64,000 bases of DNA from Candidatus Poribacteria bacterium (GTDB lineage: Bacteria > Poribacteria > WGA-4E > WGA-3G): the NCBI GenBank assembly GCA_022821965.1, contig JAJECN010000057.1, positions 1 through 64,000 on the forward strand. Direction: 5' to 3'. Both the position numbers and the translations under genes were made by a program. The notes below the pieces were generated by a model. That model was given only the letters and a program-made list of their open reading frames with translations, had not been told where the DNA came from and made no database searches. Shown here piece after piece: positions 2,901 through 46,162 of this stretch (position 1 is the stretch's first letter; every line of letters starts with the position of its first letter).

Positions 2901-5900
2901 ATGACAACTGAACTTTCCAAAAATTCTCCGACGAATCCCAGGGACCGAAATTTGCTTTTAAAAAGTTTAATCGGCTTGGTTGGGCTGATGTCCATCCTTC
3001 TCGGTGTCTGTATCTTCTATATTGTGCGGGGTAACATAGGTGCAAAGACGCGATACAGTGTCAAGTCTTTCACGCCGCAAGGAGAGGTTCCACAATGGGC
3101 TGATTTTTCGATTACGTTCTCAGAAGCAATCATAGATAAATCGCGTGTTGGAACCGAAGTTCCAGCAGAGGCACTTCGGTTTACGCCAGCTGTTCAAGGC
3201 ACTGCCCGCTGGGCGGCGCGCGATAGAGTCGGCTTTTTCTTAGATGCACCTTTATCCCCCTCTACACAATACACCCTCCAACTCACACCAGAACTCAACC
3301 CAGATGGAACCTTCCTACTCACCGGAGAAAAAGAGTTTAAATTCGCCACCGAACCTTTCGGAGTACAACAAACACGTATGGAGTTTACCTCTAACAATGA
3401 GCATGTAACGGGGACTGGCACAATAGCATTCAACTATCCCGTAACTATCGTCGACTTAAAGGCACATCTCTCCATTGAACTCGACGATGGAACAGAAGTT
3501 CCATATCAAATTGAAACTAACGCAGCGACAGCACGAACAGTAAAATTCAAGACTAAACGAATAAAACGCCTCAAGGTAAATCGAGAGATAAAGATTAGGA
3601 TTGAAAAAGGATTCAAGTGTACAGGTGGAAAAATCGGTTTGGAAAAACCAAGCGTTACGCCCGTCATACTCCGAGGGAGAGGGACACTCGGCGTAACATA
3701 TTCAGATGTTTGGGAAAGTGATGGTACGCCTTATATTTCGGTTAGTTTCAGCGCACCGGTACTCAGCGACGCAATTGAACCGTATTTAGAACTGACACCG
3801 ACAGTAACAACATATAAGGTGACATCCGACTATCGGAACATAAGAATCCACGGCGATTTTAAGAGGCGGACTACTTACACACTGAAAATTCGGAAAGGCT
3901 TAACAGCACGAAACGATGCCGTCTTAAAACAGGACTACATGACACGGCTCAAGATTCCGGACATTAAACCGCAGCTCCGGTTTCTCGGTGATGGCTTCTT
4001 CCTCGCGAGAAAGGGGCAGCTGAATCTCGGTCTCGCAACGATTAACGTTGAACGTGTGGAACTCAATATTGAGAAAGTTTTTGCAAACAATCTTATCTAT
4101 GTCTCGAAATTAGAGAGATGGAGCCGTTGGAGTAGGAACTTAGGTAAATCTATTCATACAGAAGTGCTTGATGTGTCTTCTCAATTAAACGAAGAGGTGA
4201 CGACACCTATCTCTTTGGAGGCGTACCTCTCAGACGAACATGTCGGTATCTTCAAAGTTGTAGTACGAAACACACGCAATAGGTGGAACAGTACGCATCA
4301 ATGGGTGCTCATCACGGATTTGGGCATTAGTGCTAAACGCCTCGGAGATAGGCTGTATGTTTGGGTGAAATCCCTATCTACCGGTAAACCTGTACCAAGC
4401 GCGCGCGTTAAACTCATCAGCGATAACAACCAAACATTGTTCAGCGGTGCGACCAACTGGGCAGGATTTATTGAGTTCACAGATGTTGCGGAGAAGACAG
4501 AAAACTTTACACCGTTTATGATCACCGTCGAGAAACGCGATGATCTCGCTTTCATTCAATTGGACCGGCATGAAATCGCAACAGTAGATTTCAATATCGC
4601 AGGTTCCGCCTATCTGCAAAAAGGCTATGAAGCCTTTCTCTACACCAGCAGGGGCGTTTATCGTCCCGGTGAAACTGTTCAACTCGCTGGCATTGTCCGA
4701 GGACCGAAGCATAAAACGCCACAACCGCTGCCTACGCGAATTGAAGTTATCTCCCCCGATGGCAGAACCTTGCGAGAGTTAAGACAGCAAACAAACAAAA
4801 GTGGTGCCTGCGATGTGCAAATTCTCATTCCTGATTATGCCTTGACCGGCAGCTATATTGCTAAAATGCGGATCGCTGATCGGGTCGTTGGAAGTGCTCA
4901 ATTTCAGGTTGAAGAATTTATGCCCGATCGAATGAAAGTTTCTGTAACAGCGGATAAAGCCGCCTATAAACTCGGAGATGAACTTGACATTGAAGTCACT
5001 GCCATCAATCTGTTCGGTCCTCCAGCTGTAGGACGGAAGGTGCAAGTTTCATGCGATTTAGAAGGAGTCCCGTTCCTAACAGACAGCATCCTACAAGACA
5101 CAGCTGGAAAAAAATGGAGTTCGTTCGTCTTCGGAAATACCGGTTCAAATTTTGAGAAACAGAGAATTGAGTTGGGAGAAGCCAAAACCGACACAGCAGG
5201 TAAGGCGCACTACCAATTTACGATTCCGGCAACGTTGAAAGCTCCTTCTCTGCTAAATGGGATTCTGACAGCAATCGTCAGCGAAGTTGGGGGCAGAGCG
5301 GTCACCGCCTCCCACAGAGTTCTTATCCATCCATACTCGCATTATGTTGGACTCCGACAGACAACGACGGGAGATGTAAAAATTAACAAACCGCTTCGTT
5401 TCGATTACATTGCTATCAACGATGCAATGGCAGCCGCGCCGGGACGTGCTTTAAAACTCAGTTTACACAAGGTCCATTGGAACACAATACTTCGGCAGAA
5501 CACTTCGGGACGTTACAAGTACGTCTCTGAACCGCAGATGACAGAAGTGGAAACACAGATGTTAACTTCAGCGGAGGAAATGCAAACGGTGACGTTAACA
5601 CCCTCAGACTATGGCGAATACCGCGTTCGTATCGAAGACATCGCCTCAACAGCAACAGCAGAATTGAAGTTTTATGTCAGTGGATGGGGGCGTACCCCTG
5701 TCTCTATGGAGCATCCTACTCGGTTAGACCTAACGCTGGATAAACCTGCCTACCGTCCGGAGCAAACAGCGAAACTGTCCATTAAGGCACCTTTCCCTGG
5801 TACACTCTTGCTTACTGTCGAGCGAGAAAAAGTGTTAAGTCACCGGACAGTAGTAATGAAAAACAATACCGCAACTCTATCAATTCCGGTCCGGTATGCC

Positions 5901-8636
5901 TATAGACCGAATGTGTACCTTTCTGCAACGCTGACCCGTTCCATCCCAACGGAAGCAGCTGTGAATGGTGAGCAGTCCCCTCTCCCCGCGCGCGCGTTTG
6001 GCGTAATTCCATTGAAAATAGATGAAACGCGGAGACGGCTCTCTGTAGAGATGTCGCTTGAGCAAACAGATGATACCGGTAGAAAAAAGAAGATCCCGCT
6101 TTTCAATCCAAGCAGAGACACTACGTCAGCGGATGGCAGTTTGCAGGTCTCCGAGTCTGAAAATAACGAGGTAACAGTCCGACCAAACAGCGAGATAACC
6201 ATAGCGTTTCAAGTTCACGGTAGACGTTCTTGGCAAAAATACGATGTCTGTATTGCAGCTGTTGATGAAGGGATTCTCGCGCTAACGGACTTCAGAACGC
6301 CTAACCCACATGATTACTTCTATCGACAGCGCGGTCTTAAGACGCGCTCCTTTGACCTGTATAGCGGTATTCTGCCTGAAATCGCAGCTGTCACCGACAA
6401 TTCGAGTACAGGTGGAGATGAAGACGCGATGCTTCGGGCGGGACGGCGGAAACGGTTGAGTACTGGCAGTATCCGACGGGTGAAGCCGGTTTCGCTCTGG
6501 TCAGGCTTTGTGAGAACGGATGGAAACGGACGCGGCACTGTTCAATTCAAAATTCCGCAGTTTAACGGAACGTTGAGGCTAATGGCAGTCGCATTCACCG
6601 GTGGAGATTACGGGGCATCGGAAGCATATTTGACCGTCCGCGAACCTATTGTCTTAACCCCTACATTCCCCCGATTTCTCGCAGGTGGTGACAAGATTCG
6701 CATCCCCGTCACCCTTTTCAACGGCACAGGCGAAGATGGAGAATTTAAGGTACAATTACAAGCGGCAGGCGATGTGCAACTCCTTTCAGCAAGTTCAGAG
6801 TCCTCAGGCCTCATGCCTCAGTCTTCAGTTAAAGAGGATTCTCTGGCAACCACAAGAAACTCTTTAACTGAAAACCAACAACTGGAAACTGAAAACTCTC
6901 TCAGCATAGATAAGAAAGTTGAGGCGGGGGCAGAAGCACAGGTCTTTTTTGATATTCTCGTTCACGATGCCATAGGAAAAGCCGATTTTAATCTCTCCGC
7001 GCTCGGTAATACCGAGACGACACAACTGGAGGTAAAAATTCCACTGCGCTCTGTCGCCCCACCTGTTACAAAAACAGGACAGGGGGTGGTGCGCGCCGGT
7101 GAACCTGTGGATTTCATTTTGCCTGCGAATTTGATACCAGATTCGTCAGAGTTCAGTCTGACGCTATCACCGTTCCCAAATATCAGGTTTGCGGACAGCC
7201 TCCGCTACCTTGTCCGCTATCCATACGGATGTTTGGAACAGACAACCAGCAAGATTTTCCCACTACTCTACTTCAGTGACTTAGCACGAAGTGTCGAGCC
7301 GATGCTGGCTGCAGAAGATGCAGCGGACTATTATATCATGTCGGGTATCACAAAAATCGAAAGTATGTTGAAATCAAACAATCGTTTTACCTACTGGCCC
7401 GGTGGTACTTACGTCAATTCATGGAGCAGTATCTATGCGTCCCACTTCCTCGTAGAGGCACGGAAAGCCGGCTATGAGGTCGCAGATCGAGTTTACGACG
7501 CGATGCTGGAAGGTTTGAGAGCACAAGCGAAATTTTCACCAAACATGGAAAACGAAAACGAAGAAAAAAAGATAAGGAGAGAGATTTCGCTGGCGACCTA
7601 CGCAGTTTATGTCTTAGCTGCTGCCGGACACCCGGACCGAGGGACGATGCACTATTTGAAAAATAGAGGCTTGAGCGGACTCAGCGATTACAGCCACTTC
7701 CAACTCGCAGGAGCATTTGCTCTCAGCGGCGAACTGGAAACCGCCCTGTCAATGCTTCCGGTGTCGGTATCACTGCCTGTTAATGGTAATGGTAAAGGAA
7801 CAGGACAACGGGAAACAGGTGGAACGTTTGACTCACCTATTCGCGCCCAAGCCATCATGCTGGATGTGCTTGCTGAAGTCAACGCAAACCATCCATCAGT
7901 TCCGATGCTTGTCAAAAACTTGAGTGAGGCGGCATCGGCAGGCAATCGCTGGGCAACAACACAGGAGAACGCTTTCGCTTTCCTCGCATTAGGCAAGATT
8001 TTGAAGAAGCAGATGGATCGAAATTACACCGGTACCCTGAAACTTAACGGCGAACACTTCGAGGATTTTGATGCAACGGAGACGCGCTACACCGATGAAG
8101 CATGGGACGGAACGCGCATTCAGCTCTCTATTGAAGGCGAAGGCAGTTGCTACTATTACTGGAGTGCATTCGGTATTCAACGCGACTCCTTTATTGAGGA
8201 ATATGAACGCGAGTTACAGGTGAGCCGCCGCTATTTCAACAAAGATGGAGAAGGCCTCACCGGCACATTTGCACACGGCGATTTAATCGTCGCGGAGATA
8301 ACCGTCAAAGCACTAACCGCCAACCTTGAAAACGTCGTTATCGTAGATATGTTGCCCACAGGCTTTGAGATTGAGAACCCGCGGCTGGAGTCCCGGGCGG
8401 GCATTCCGTGGTTGAAAGCACAAGACTTTAAACCGGACTATCTTGATATTCGCGATGATCGGCTTATTTTCTTCGGGACGTTCCCACGGCAACGCGAACG
8501 CAAATTCTATTATGCACTACGCGCTGTTACACAAGGTGAATTTACGCTACCTCCTATTGTCGCTGAGGCGATGTACGATACAACAAAATCTGCCGTAAAA
8601 GGTAGCATGCGTATTGAAGTGGTTTCAGAAGAATAG
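2901..8636 (+). CDS. Bacterial alpha-2-macroglobulin family protein
   Basis: This 1911-residue protein is a periplasmic protease trap. Residues about 24-44 form a signal anchor. A series of macroglobulin (MG) beta-sandwich domains follows, including the R-G-V-Y-R-P-G-E motif typical of MG2 and the bait-region surroundings. The thioester motif C-L-E-Q is present (Cys1444, Gln1447) within Y-P-Y-G-C-L-E-Q-T, followed by the alpha-helical thioester domain and a receptor-binding-like C-terminal domain. Length is slightly above the usual 1,500-1,800. It is directly followed by pbpC, the classic partner; family knowledge suggests the pair protects and repairs the wall. A dispersed repeat is inserted in frame at residues about 1300-1335. 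The ATG at 2901 follows an AGGAGA ribosome site. The stop codon TAG lies in the left end of the next repeat copy. Confidence 0.93.
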   Translation: MTTELSKNSPTNPRDRNLLLKSLIGLVGLMSILLGVCIFYIVRGNIGAKTRYSVKSFTPQGEVPQWADFSITFSEAIIDKSRVGTEVPAEALRFTPAVQGTARWAARDRVGFFLDAPLSPSTQYTLQLTPELNPDGTFLLTGEKEFKFATEPFGVQQTRMEFTSNNEHVTGTGTIAFNYPVTIVDLKAHLSIELDDGTEVPYQIETNAATARTVKFKTKRIKRLKVNREIKIRIEKGFKCTGGKIGLEKPSVTPVILRGRGTLGVTYSDVWESDGTPYISVSFSAPVLSDAIEPYLELTPTVTTYKVTSDYRNIRIHGDFKRRTTYTLKIRKGLTARNDAVLKQDYMTRLKIPDIKPQLRFLGDGFFLARKGQLNLGLATINVERVELNIEKVFANNLIYVSKLERWSRWSRNLGKSIHTEVLDVSSQLNEEVTTPISLEAYLSDEHVGIFKVVVRNTRNRWNSTHQWVLITDLGISAKRLGDRLYVWVKSLSTGKPVPSARVKLISDNNQTLFSGATNWAGFIEFTDVAEKTENFTPFMITVEKRDDLAFIQLDRHEIATVDFNIAGSAYLQKGYEAFLYTSRGVYRPGETVQLAGIVRGPKHKTPQPLPTRIEVISPDGRTLRELRQQTNKSGACDVQILIPDYALTGSYIAKMRIADRVVGSAQFQVEEFMPDRMKVSVTADKAAYKLGDELDIEVTAINLFGPPAVGRKVQVSCDLEGVPFLTDSILQDTAGKKWSSFVFGNTGSNFEKQRIELGEAKTDTAGKAHYQFTIPATLKAPSLLNGILTAIVSEVGGRAVTASHRVLIHPYSHYVGLRQTTTGDVKINKPLRFDYIAINDAMAAAPGRALKLSLHKVHWNTILRQNTSGRYKYVSEPQMTEVETQMLTSAEEMQTVTLTPSDYGEYRVRIEDIASTATAELKFYVSGWGRTPVSMEHPTRLDLTLDKPAYRPEQTAKLSIKAPFPGTLLLTVEREKVLSHRTVVMKNNTATLSIPVRYAYRPNVYLSATLTRSIPTEAAVNGEQSPLPARAFGVIPLKIDETRRRLSVEMSLEQTDDTGRKKKIPLFNPSRDTTSADGSLQVSESENNEVTVRPNSEITIAFQVHGRRSWQKYDVCIAAVDEGILALTDFRTPNPHDYFYRQRGLKTRSFDLYSGILPEIAAVTDNSSTGGDEDAMLRAGRRKRLSTGSIRRVKPVSLWSGFVRTDGNGRGTVQFKIPQFNGTLRLMAVAFTGGDYGASEAYLTVREPIVLTPTFPRFLAGGDKIRIPVTLFNGTGEDGEFKVQLQAAGDVQLLSASSESSGLMPQSSVKEDSLATTRNSLTENQQLETENSLSIDKKVEAGAEAQVFFDILVHDAIGKADFNLSALGNTETTQLEVKIPLRSVAPPVTKTGQGVVRAGEPVDFILPANLIPDSSEFSLTLSPFPNIRFADSLRYLVRYPYGCLEQTTSKIFPLLYFSDLARSVEPMLAAEDAADYYIMSGITKIESMLKSNNRFTYWPGGTYVNSWSSIYASHFLVEARKAGYEVADRVYDAMLEGLRAQAKFSPNMENENEEKKIRREISLATYAVYVLAAAGHPDRGTMHYLKNRGLSGLSDYSHFQLAGAFALSGELETALSMLPVSVSLPVNGNGKGTGQRETGGTFDSPIRAQAIMLDVLAEVNANHPSVPMLVKNLSEAASAGNRWATTQENAFAFLALGKILKKQMDRNYTGTLKLNGEHFEDFDATETRYTDEAWDGTRIQLSIEGEGSCYYYWSAFGIQRDSFIEEYERELQVSRRYFNKDGEGLTGTFAHGDLIVAEITVKALTANLENVVIVDMLPTGFEIENPRLESRAGIPWLKAQDFKPDYLDIRDDRLIFFGTFPRQRERKFYYALRAVTQGEFTLPPIVAEAMYDTTKSAVKGSMRIEVVSEE
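6800..6905 (+). repeat. Heptad-type palindromic repeat, in frame inside the A2M gene
   Basis: A perfect 13-bp inverted pair (6824-6836 and 6860-6872, TTCAGTTAAAGAG and its complement) flanks 23 bases, and ACTGAAAAC-type units follow on the right. It is read without interruption as a Ser/Glu/Thr-rich linker between two beta domains. The same arms occur in intergenic copies (for example near 58765). Confidence 0.75.
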
Positions 8637-8736
8637 TTATCAGTCATCGGTCATCGGTTGTCAGTTACTCACCTGTGGCGGTAAAACGTTTTTACCTACC
8701 ACACATTTAACTGATAACCGATAACTGAAAACTGAA
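8635..8736. repeat. Heptad-type palindromic repeat between A2M and pbpC
   Basis: Left arm: degenerate 7-base units TTATCAG, TCATCGG, TCATCGG, TTGTCAG. Right arm (8709-8736): the complementary AACTGATAACCGATAACTG type. A small inner stem GGTAAAA-cg-TTTTTACC separates them. The element fills nearly the whole gap between the two genes. Confidence 0.85.
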
Positions 8737-8755
8737 AATCCTTGTAGACCGAGAA

Positions 8756-11275
8756 ATGTTAGCACACAGAATTTTATCCCCTTTAAAAAATCACGTCCGG
8801 CGACACACCAAGAAGTTATTTTGGCTGCTACCCCCACTCTTTATCATCGCCCTCTTCATGCTCGCAAACTGGTGTTTCCCGCTGCCCAAAACACGTCTGC
8901 ATCCACCACCATCTCCGATTGTATTGGACAGAAACGGACAGTGGCTCCGAGCATTTTTAGCGGACGATGGCATGTGGCGAATAGCCGTCAGCCATCAGCC
9001 ATCAGCAGTTAGTGAAACAGCCACGAACCGTTCTTCCGAAGGCTTCCGAGAGCCGAGAGCCGAGAGCCATTCCCTGTTATTGCACCAAGCAATACTAACA
9101 TCAGAAGACAGATGGTTTTACTACCATTACGGTATCAACCCAGTGTCCATTGCAACCGCCCTCTATGACAATCTCAAAGCAGGTGAGGTGGTGCGCGGCG
9201 GTTCAACCATTACCATGCAGCTCGCTCGACTGATGGAACCCAAAGCCCGAAATATTTCAAACAAACTTATCGAGGCGTTTCGCGCCCTCCAACTTGAACA
9301 TACCTATTCTAAATCTGAGATTTTAACTTTTTATTTCAACATGCTCCCCTACGGCGGGAACATCGTTGGAACGGCAGCGGCATCTCGATTTTACTTCAAC
9401 AAACCGCAACATGCGCTTAGTCTCGGCGAAGCCGCACTCCTCGCTGCTATCCCGAACGCACCAGAACGTCTGCGTCCAGATAGATTTCCAGAAAATGCAA
9501 GAAAGGCGCGTGAAAAGGTGCTGAATCGTCTCCTTGCACGTGGACAAATCTCCAAACAGCAGTGGCAAGAGGCATCACAGGAGCCGATCCCTAAAACACG
9601 TTATCCACTCCCATTTAAAGCACCTCATCTCTCACGTATGTTGGTTAAAGATGCAGCACCTACAACAGACGGTAGGATATACACGACAATAGATATGAAG
9701 GTTCAGGAAACTGCCGTACGTATTCTTCGTGAATATCTGGGGAAACCAAGCCTTCAGGGGTCTCATAGTGCTGGCACAGGTGCGATTGTTGTTATGGATA
9801 CACAAAGTCGTGAAGTTTTAGCAATGGTGGGTTCCCACGATTTTTTCGACCAGCGCGCGTCGGGACAGATAAATGGGACGCTCGCGTCTCGCTCTCCCGG
9901 TTCTGCACTCAAACCTTTTGTCTACGCGCTTGCAATGGAACAGGGTTTGATTACGCCAGAAACACTGTTATTCGATGTACCTGTCAGCTACGCCGGATAT
10001 GAACCCGTGAATTACGATGGAAAATATAACGGCTACGTTACCGCCCGTCAAGCACTGGCACGCTCTCTCAATGTCCCCGCCGTTAACCTGAATGCACGTC
10101 TGAAGAATATCACACTGCCCACCTTCCTCAAACAGGCTGGCATTTCCACGCTCGCACCCGACAGAAAGTACGGACTCTCTATGGTTCTTGGTGGATGTGA
10201 AGTGAATTTGCTTGAGTTGACAACACTCTACGCAGGGTTGGCAAATATGGGAGAATTTAAACCTTACCAAATAGTAGTCAGCGGTCAGCAGTCAGCGGTC
10301 AGCAGTCAACAGTCAGAAAACCCCCTTGCTGAAAGCCGATGGCTGAAGGCTAAAGGCTATTCACAACGTTTACTCCGGGCAGAGACAAGTTTCATCATAA
10401 CCGAGATGCTCACAACTTCACAACGACCCGCGAACGCAGTAAAAAGTTTAGAAGTTTTTGAAAGCACAATAAACCTACCAAAGATCGCATGGAAAACTGG
10501 TACTTCTTACGGGCACCGAGATGCGTGGTGTATCGGGTACTCACCGACATTAACGATTGGCGTGTGGCTTGGGAACTTTGACGGAAGAGGGGCTCCGATG
10601 CTGAGCGGGACAGACACTGCGACCCCCATTCTATTCGCGCTCTTTAGTGCGCTAACAGGACAGGACACACACCGATGGTTCATCAAACCGGAACAATTGA
10701 AAACACGGAAGGTCTGTGCGCTCAGTGGTGCACCGGTTTCACCACACTGCCCTACCCATAAGAGCGATGTATATATCCCCGGTATCTCACCTGTAGCAAC
10801 CTGTGCAATTCACAAACGTATCTATGTCGATGAAACTACAGGACATAGTCTCTGTTCTCACTGTCGAAATTTTTCGACAGATAACGCACACCCCCAAATA
10901 TTTGAAGAGTGGCCCGCTGAGGCCGCGACTTGGTTAACAAAAAATGGATTTGCCGTGCCGGTTCTGCCAGAACATAATCCGTTGTGTACCGGTCCAATCG
11001 CAGGGAATGCCCCTATTATTCTATCTCCAGCAGACAACACTACCTATTACATTCGGACAGGCGTGCCGCTGGACAATCAAAAAATTCAACTGTCGGCTTC
11101 GGTTTCCAACCGAACACAGAATTTGTTCTGGTTTCTGGATGGTGAGTTAATTTTCAAGGGGAAGGCAGGAGAAGAATACTGGCTCACACCTGTCAAAGGG
11201 CAACATATATTAACATGTGTGGATGCGGACGGACGCTCAGCAAGCCGCCCGCTCCACATCTCAATGATACGGTAG
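8756..11275 (+). CDS. pbpC: Penicillin-binding protein 1C, bifunctional
   Basis: An 839-residue inner-membrane enzyme that polymerises and cross-links peptidoglycan. A single membrane anchor lies at about 20-40. The GT51 glycosyltransferase domain has the catalytic E-D-R-W-F-Y (Glu117) and G-G-S-T-I-T-M-Q. The transpeptidase domain carries S-A-L-K (Ser383/Lys386), S-L-N and K-T-G-T (Lys580). A C-terminal domain of the BiPBP type follows (about 750-839). Two insertions, residues about 77-105 and 507-538, are low-complexity stretches encoded by the same 7-base repeat family that sits between genes; both are in frame and lie outside catalytic motifs. Starts at ATG 8756 with only a weak ribosome site, probably coupled to the A2M gene upstream. 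Confidence 0.95.
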   Translation: MLAHRILSPLKNHVRRHTKKLFWLLPPLFIIALFMLANWCFPLPKTRLHPPPSPIVLDRNGQWLRAFLADDGMWRIAVSHQPSAVSETATNRSSEGFREPRAESHSLLLHQAILTSEDRWFYYHYGINPVSIATALYDNLKAGEVVRGGSTITMQLARLMEPKARNISNKLIEAFRALQLEHTYSKSEILTFYFNMLPYGGNIVGTAAASRFYFNKPQHALSLGEAALLAAIPNAPERLRPDRFPENARKAREKVLNRLLARGQISKQQWQEASQEPIPKTRYPLPFKAPHLSRMLVKDAAPTTDGRIYTTIDMKVQETAVRILREYLGKPSLQGSHSAGTGAIVVMDTQSREVLAMVGSHDFFDQRASGQINGTLASRSPGSALKPFVYALAMEQGLITPETLLFDVPVSYAGYEPVNYDGKYNGYVTARQALARSLNVPAVNLNARLKNITLPTFLKQAGISTLAPDRKYGLSMVLGGCEVNLLELTTLYAGLANMGEFKPYQIVVSGQQSAVSSQQSENPLAESRWLKAKGYSQRLLRAETSFIITEMLTTSQRPANAVKSLEVFESTINLPKIAWKTGTSYGHRDAWCIGYSPTLTIGVWLGNFDGRGAPMLSGTDTATPILFALFSALTGQDTHRWFIKPEQLKTRKVCALSGAPVSPHCPTHKSDVYIPGISPVATCAIHKRIYVDETTGHSLCSHCRNFSTDNAHPQIFEEWPAEAATWLTKNGFAVPVLPEHNPLCTGPIAGNAPIILSPADNTTYYIRTGVPLDNQKIQLSASVSNRTQNLFWFLDGELIFKGKAGEEYWLTPVKGQHILTCVDADGRSASRPLHISMIR
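8984..9070 (+). repeat. Heptad repeats in frame inside pbpC (first)
   Basis: Units GTCAGCC, ATCAGCC, ATCAGCA, GTTAGTG run from 8987 to 9014, and three exact CCGAGAG units from 9046 to 9066. They encode a Ser/Gln/Pro- and Arg/Glu-rich loop before the glycosyltransferase motif. Confidence 0.85.
10277..10362 (+). repeat. Heptad repeats in frame inside pbpC (second)
   Basis: GTCAGCG, GTCAGCA, GTCAGCG, GTCAGCA, GTCAACA are five consecutive units (10277-10311), followed after a short gap by GCTGAAA, GCCGATG, GCTGAAG, GCTAAAG (10328-10355). They encode a Gln/Ser-rich loop in the transpeptidase domain. Confidence 0.85.
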
Positions 11276-11276
11276 A

Positions 11277-11388
11277 ATAGTTATCAGTTACAAAAGATTT
11301 TTGATAGTCCTAAAGTCCCTTTCTCTCACTGCAAGGAGAACCAACTGTAAGGTTTTTCGTAGAAAAACCTTACTAACAACTGAAAACT
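11277..11388. terminator. Repeat copy with bidirectional terminator hairpin
   Basis: Between convergent genes. The edges look like a worn heptad-type repeat (AGTTATCAGTTA on the left, AACTGAAAACTA on the right). Inside is a perfect 12-bp stem GTAAGGTTTTTC / GAAAAACCTTAC at 11347-11373 with a 3-base loop, followed by T or A runs on either strand, suited to end transcription in both directions. Confidence 0.6.
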
Positions 11389-45899: not shown

Positions 45900-46162
45900 T
45901 GGCAGATTCTAAGAATGATTCTAAAAAAATTCATACAACAGAGGACTCGTCAAAGACCCGCACAACAGAGGATTTGGCTAACATTGAAAAGGCGCATAGA
46001 CCGCAATCTTTTCAAAGATTGCCTTCCCTATCCGAATCTGATACTGGACAACAAGAGTCCGATAGCTCTACAAGCAAACCTGATTCCACGCCCAATGATA
46101 GCTCTACAAGCAAACCTGATTCCACGTCCAATGATAGCTCTACAGATACTGATAAGAAGTAA
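45899..46162 (+). CDS. Small disordered Ser/Thr/Asp-rich protein with tandem repeat
   Basis: 87 residues, hydrophilic and without predicted structure. The ATG overlaps the previous stop (TAATG), so translation is coupled to the membrane protein. The C-terminal half has two tandem 36-base repeats encoding S-S-T-S-K-P-D-S-T-x-N-D (46063-46134), followed by a partial third. It ends in D-T-D-K-K. Function unknown; perhaps a soluble tail or partner of the membrane protein. Confidence 0.6.
   Translation: MADSKNDSKKIHTTEDSSKTRTTEDLANIEKAHRPQSFQRLPSLSESDTGQQESDSSTSKPDSTPNDSSTSKPDSTSNDSSTDTDKK

Follow-up and report, generated by a model that had tools for sequence, protein, structure and literature searches.

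How does a repeat with a unit of seven nucleotides come to lie in frame, without a stop, inside two unrelated protein genes? The 64,000 nucleotides of DNA analysed here (the window) belong to G000, a Candidatus Poribacteria MAG; Poribacteria are sponge-symbiont bacteria. The repeat is found in the genes for two envelope proteins, A2M and pbpC (Table 1). We consider it highly probable that the three repeat blocks in these genes are copies of a genus-specific, dispersed and non-autonomous palindromic element, whose landings are filtered by selection and whose transposition-like origin is inferred.

Table 1. Genes, repeat elements and hairpin arms in the window, and location of cassettes in three further host proteins
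Feature	Window position (nt)	Strand	Protein position (aa)	Description
A2M	2901..8636	+		Bacterial alpha-2-macroglobulin (YfhM-like; related to E. coli YfhM); host, one copy
A2M cassette	6791..6900	+	about 1298-1333	Full-length copy of the dispersed family; read as SSESSGLMPQSSVKEDSLATTRNSLTENQQLETENS
A2M left perfect hairpin arm	6824..6836	+		TTCAGTTAAAGAG, 13 nt
A2M right perfect hairpin arm	6860..6872	+		CTCTTTAACTGAA, exact reverse complement of the left arm
Intergenic copy, A2M-pbpC gap	8632..8742	+		Same family; A2M terminates at the TAG within its AATAG end
pbpC	8756..11275	+		Penicillin-binding protein 1C (TIGR02073, 694.7 bits); host, two copies
pbpC site 1 cassette	8980..9071	+	about 75-105	Just N-terminal of the transglycosylase domain
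pbpC site 2 cassette	10270..10361	+	about 505-536	Within the transpeptidase domain, SLN-to-KTG interval
pbpC site 3	10858..10899	+	about 702-714	Empty in G000
NadB cassette			462-497	Between FAD_binding_2 (66-443) and Succ_DH_flav_C (503-600)
CarA cassette			209-244	Between CPSase_sm_chain (45-170) and GATase (247-422)
DAG-kinase cassette			129-163	Between domains that end at 126 and start at 168

A sequence-only reading of this DNA had noticed a copy with a perfect hairpin arm in A2M and two blocks of GTCAGCN and CCGAGAG units in pbpC, all three being read through. The A2M arms are indeed exact reverse complements, and both open reading frames continue through the blocks without a stop. These arms are the sole two matches of the 13-mer in the whole window, even if two mismatches are allowed, and by itself the 13-mer is within chance at this level (1.7 expected); the hairpin folds better than codon-shuffled versions of the sequence (z -3.4). 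For pbpC the description has to be corrected, since the repeats exist but do not form two uniform arrays. Instead, each site is a whole two-armed element spanning AATAG to ATT, with a left arm of AATAG and RGYYRTC or RGTCAGC units and a right arm of CCGAGAG at site 1 and of GCTGAAAGCCGATGGCTGAAGGC...CTATT at site 2. The hairpin of site 2 is also supported against codon shuffles (z -3.1); the hairpin of site 1 is no better than shuffles (z -0.5) and has decayed. The copy between the two genes is conserved in G017, and G001 has a tandem GGAAGATT-type repeat instead. Elsewhere in the window, a 36-nt tandem repeat is present at 46061-46144 (2.3 copies, 97% matches).

The complete element is about 105 nt long (median 104.5-105 nt) and consists of AATAG, a left arm of RGYYRTC heptads, a short core, a right arm of heptads such as TAACTGA, GATAACC or GAAAACT, and CTATT. 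It thus has terminal inverted repeats, AATAG...CTATT plus the heptad arms, and its left and right arms pair, unlike those of unpaired direct-repeat sets. Across the genic cassettes the median hairpin z was -2.6, with 46 of 79 below -2, and RNAalifold did not return a consensus structure for the cassette alignment. The peptide encoded by the element, roughly 35 residues, is close to NSxQSSVISxQLxEGSVxxxxSLTDNRKLKTDNYS and matched no NCBIfam family; whether that library holds models of the Rickettsia palindromic elements (RPE) is unconfirmed.

Strict heptad arrays were counted in 774 kb of G000 and 480 kb from two relatives, not in the whole genome. In the 774 kb of G000 only about 10% of them are genic although 88% of the DNA is ORF. 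A weight-matrix search of 632 kb of coding DNA from the same genome yielded 8 arrays, versus 0-0.3 in codon shuffles, and these 8 represent 6 elements in 5 ORFs. Half of these elements (3/6) are located in the A2M-pbpC operon, which explains why the repeats were noticed here; the clustering is significant (binomial p 4e-5), with the caveat that the operon was picked because of its arrays. Further in-frame heptad arrays are present downstream in two large ORFs (G000 C42:96674-102904 and 61913-68638), which encode a C25 peptidase-like protein and a 2241-aa protein.

Copies inside and outside genes differ in their reading frames. In 1.25 Mb of three genomes we found 56 intergenic hairpin copies with a median length of 104.5 nt, whose lengths are distributed over the three residues modulo 3 as 22/16/18; in 40 of them all six frames are closed. 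Their heptads are mostly AGTTATC, AGTTGTC and GGTTATC, that is, TAACTGA-type units on the other strand. In the genic cassettes the same frame of the element is open in 79 of 79 cases, being the sole open frame in 69, and the stop-avoiding ACCGA replaces ACTGA more often (111/224 genic versus 40/139 intergenic, p 1e-4). From the intergenic copies it can be estimated that about 2% of random landings would be tolerable (20 of 336 frames open, multiplied by one third for the length). Since intergenic lengths are random modulo 3 and about 2% of copies pass, no frame-keeping mechanism is needed; of the earlier proposal that selection or a mechanism must keep the length divisible by three, selection remains and the special mechanism can be dropped.

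The family is found throughout the genus of G000. With the A2M cassette as DNA query, matches were obtained in 24 of 24 congeneric genomes (5-26 places each) versus 1 of 16 others. A peptide profile had matches in all 38 congeners searched, and at E<=1e-6 it detected 29 of 38 congeners versus 2 of 35 other genomes of the order. By this measure the family hardly occurs in its order outside this genus. The profile search is biased to coding copies because the profile was built from coding copies, and the sensitivity of blastn between ORFs and intergenic DNA was too low for heptads.

To follow the loops in A2M and pbpC, orthologues were taken from 34 genomes of the same genus and from 6 genomes of other families of the order; all pbpC orthologues found among public genomes are from Poribacteria. 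Orthologues from 35 congeneric genomes revealed four hypervariable loops, three in pbpC and one in A2M, with lengths within the genus of 8-62 aa (site 1), 12-61 aa (site 2), 15-75 aa (site 3) and 25-44 aa (A2M). As anticipated by the sequence-only reading, the loops in congeners are missing, shorter, longer or made of other repeats, and they are in frame every time. The heptad score exceeded the threshold at site 1 in 19 of 34 genomes, at site 2 in 15 of 35, at site 3 in 4 of 35 and in A2M in 4 of 33, compared with a background of 11 in 2765 random windows of the same genes (0.4%). In the other families of the order site 1 has a constant 10 aa, site 3 has 13 aa and the A2M site 8 aa, all without heptads; site 2 is variable there too, but without heptads. 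The sequence-only reading had named the same loops in distant phyla as a refutation; nothing of the kind was seen, the element being absent from these places in the genomes of other families. Site 3, empty in G000, is filled with heptads or other repeats in G009, G012, G030, G034, G010, G015, G017, G018 and G025. In G027 pbpC is split after about residue 723, outside the repeat loops, and it is undecided whether this is a real frameshift or an assembly error.

In a tree of the A2M and pbpC proteins, G000 is sister to G001 plus G008, followed by G017. The A2M cassette is present in G000 and G008 and absent from G017, and in G001 the core of the element has been swapped for a different palindrome, GTAGGGGCGAGG...CCCCTAC. 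It is also present in G018, which is distant on the tree: the DNA search with the A2M cassette gave 88% identity over 82 nt, and the loops of G000 and G018 are 84% identical, with flanking windows at 73-78%. Other repeats use the same positions. The palindrome GTAGGGGCGAGGTTACCTCGCCCCTAC, or close variants of it, lies in frame in A2M of G001, in pbpC site 3 of G003 and in CarA of G019. A further family with the core AACGAAGTGGAAAGCGGGTCTACGG and a peptide like RSLERSGKRVYGNG is found in frame in several genes and also between genes; its sites include the G001 and G017 orthologues of G000 C42:109714-110970, pbpC site 3 of G010, G015, G018 and G025, and pbpC site 2 of G019.

The earlier suggestion that protein loops can originate from the repeat holds well beyond A2M and pbpC. 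Among the profile matches listed, about 70 lie outside these two genes in open frames of at least 300 aa without a stop, and the sequences fetched contain 79 cassettes in 71 ORFs of 23 gene groups. The host groups include NadB, CarA, an S4/FtsJ TlyA-like methyltransferase, a DAGK_cat/YegS kinase, PilM, a BatA/VWA protein, a C25 peptidase, an AsmA-like protein, a Reg_prop sensor and PdxA. Outside A2M, the best full-length relatives of the A2M cassette are those in NadB (G017, G006), CarA (G017) and pbpC. Genic copies occupy interdomain linkers, termini and turns. Judged by domain limits from Pfam matches (Table 1), the C25 peptidase cassette begins where the propeptide ends, and in the TlyA-like, PilM and MFS-type proteins the cassette lies within a domain match. 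Alignment to the solved E. coli NadB and CarA places both inserts in the interdomain link. A surface position of the cassettes is inferred from these boundaries and alignments, without a structure model. Likewise, that the cassettes are translated within their hosts is predicted from open frames, and there are no protein-level data on their retention in the mature protein.

The sequence-only reading had taken the loops to be new. This is true only in part, since the element often substitutes for a native linker rather than adding to it. In NadB the cassette is carried by G000, G001, G008, G017, G006, G014, G020 and G029, whereas the remaining congeners have at this place a native linker similar in length. 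The nadB genes of G029 and its sister G005 are about 95% identical outside the linker, where G005 has the native stretch of about 96 nt and G029 a 108-nt cassette of the type found in G014 and G020; the diagnostic sites of the G029 gene switch at the cassette edges, and on the 3' side the switch reaches no more than a few nucleotides further. Alleles at one site are thus exchanged between lineages, with limits close to the cassette ends. Some 15 congeners have heptad cassettes of several subtypes in CarA; in the others the linker is about 10 aa long. Compared with those of G017 and G001, the CarA cassette of G008 is short of precisely three heptads, or 21 nt. This was the only clean contraction observed, and its length also fits the absence of a special frame mechanism. 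In two congeners, G025 and G029, another hairpin is nested in frame inside the CarA heptad cassette; it resembles AAGGTTTTTCGTAGAAAAACC, and a hairpin of this kind also occurs between genes after pbpC (window 11347-11375).

Traces of movement were sought as well. In G030, the cassettes of two separate genes share 87% identity, and when the BatA cassette is compared at DNA level, its nearest relatives are for the most part located in other genes as cassettes. This hints at a coding-adapted lineage of cassettes, but intact copies might also simply score best. Three-way alignments covering all strict arrays of a 194-kb contig revealed no clean target-site duplication, the sites having turned over at 4-15% divergence. 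Nor was a clean empty site found; several events are replacements, and the element ends are compatible with TA. Mobilisation by Y1/IS200-like transposases is not supported: four Y1 transposase matches were detected in G000, and a heptad array was located within the fetched 3 kb of only one of them (L353:2579-2614). Only Y1 enzymes, and only those of the own genome, were considered.

The repeats could have arisen in other ways. Heptads might have grown in place from short seeds by slipped-strand expansion and merely resemble the intergenic repeat, as is suggested by arms made of degenerate tandem heptads and by the CarA allele that differs by exactly 21 nt. Against this, genic copies have the non-repetitive core as well as the two arms in common with copies elsewhere, be it in other genes or between genes (about 80-105 nt at 79-91%), the arms pair as a hairpin, and the intact pbpC and A2M loops of congeners are all in frame with no off-phase state. 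Local slippage was rejected on the shared cores and is very improbable. The uniformly open frames of these loops also speak against a phase-variable contingency repeat that turns the frame on and off by copy number, with the reservation that MAG consensus sequences could conceal minor repeat-length states. We see next to no chance that the loops are an ancestral, conserved part of the proteins with repetitive codon composition. The A2M loop and the NadB linker are of similar length in many congeners without heptads, as such a view would have it, but at the corresponding position the orthologues of sister species are unrelated in sequence, and the outgroups, on which the idea was rejected, have turns of 8-13 aa at the A2M site and at pbpC sites 1 and 3.

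It is harder to decide how the copies were distributed. Possibly, ordinary homologous recombination among related species accounts for most of the spread of alleles; the original insertions would then be rare and old, and the element need not be mobile now. The mosaic nadB of G029 and the A2M allele shared with G018 would fit. We remain doubtful of this, since the exchange tracts barely exceed the cassette, and since two things are left unaccounted for: the 87% identity between copies in separate genes of the same genome, for which homologous flanks are no explanation, and the 23 host gene groups. A bolder proposal, offered only tentatively, is that a coding-adapted palindromic lineage copies itself from gene to gene and, through near-exact exchange of cassettes, actively rewrites the linkers between the domains of essential proteins; mobile hairpins would then generate a genus-wide loop repertoire. 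Cassettes could also owe their presence to selection for a role in the protein, for instance in host interaction or in tuning flexible linkers, and not be tolerated selfish DNA. The same loops are refilled in envelope proteins (A2M, PBP1C, C25 peptidase, AsmA-like protein) of a sponge symbiont, but cassettes are likewise found in the cytoplasmic enzymes NadB, CarA and TlyA-like protein, sister genomes differ strongly in these loops, and several repeat families do equally well in them; this explanation appears improbable.

We thus favour a dispersed palindromic element whose landings are filtered by selection. Copies would spread by transposition-like insertion or by short-patch recombination between repeat-bearing loops, and the majority of genic landings would be lethal or frame-breaking. 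Survivors would be those that are in frame, free of stops and placed in a tolerant loop; they may then drift, contract by 21 nt or be overwritten by further copies or other repeat families. A2M and pbpC would be sites of repeated landing. The transposition-like origin, the tolerance by selection and any present mobility are inferred.

Several known systems share traits with this element. Bacterial MITEs are short, non-autonomous and palindromic, exist in many dispersed copies and occasionally form in-frame fusions (PMC10969869). The Poribacteria element is likewise short, non-autonomous and palindromic, with AATAG/CTATT ends and many dispersed copies; a target-site duplication and a parent transposase have yet to be demonstrated for it. 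Direct repeats of the heptamer TAACTGA are known from Beggiatoaceae, Cyanobacteria and Bacteroidetes, where they are mostly intergenic (MacGregor 2015, PMC4679880). One strand of these repeats has stops in every frame, which explains their distribution, and copies within ORFs are mostly found at protein ends (PMC4679880). The Poribacteria element contains the same heptamer, TAACTGA/TCAGTTA, and is mostly intergenic too, but its heptads are the two arms of a core-bearing hairpin and it sits mid-protein in conserved enzymes. That paper makes no mention of Poribacteria (PMC4679880), and our literature search found no description of RPE-like or TAACTGA repeats in Poribacteria. The short tandemly repeated heptamers of cyanobacteria form degenerate heptad hairpins in P6b of the Nostoc trnL intron and in rnpB; they reside in RNA genes, whereas the Poribacteria cassettes are predicted to be translated.

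Translated mobile palindromes have, to our knowledge, so far been treated as a peculiarity of the Rickettsiales. The Poribacteria would add another large example from a phylum unrelated to theirs, in which about 40 species have been sequenced, closed genomes exist and essential enzymes are among the hosts. Sister species that differ only by a linker make it possible to test how selfish DNA becomes protein sequence, how frequently it is tolerated and whether linkers are entry points for new protein segments. Since repeats drive the variability of the loops in these MAG proteins, caution is called for in alignment, phylogeny and structure prediction. The Rickettsia elements are palindromes of about 100-150 bp, located between genes and in frame in unrelated genes as inserts compatible with the host protein (PMC10969869; their traits are used here as given in this review for Ogata 2000, 2002). 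The Poribacteria element, with its median of 104.5-105 nt, is palindromic as well and folds, is found in frame in 23 gene groups in a single reading frame, and has copies outside genes (56 intergenic ones). It differs in belonging to another phylum, in arms made of degenerate heptads, and in linker replacement with repeated overwriting of one site by several repeat families. By analogy, it appears to work like an RPE without being filed as one, and the RPE is its closest known parallel.
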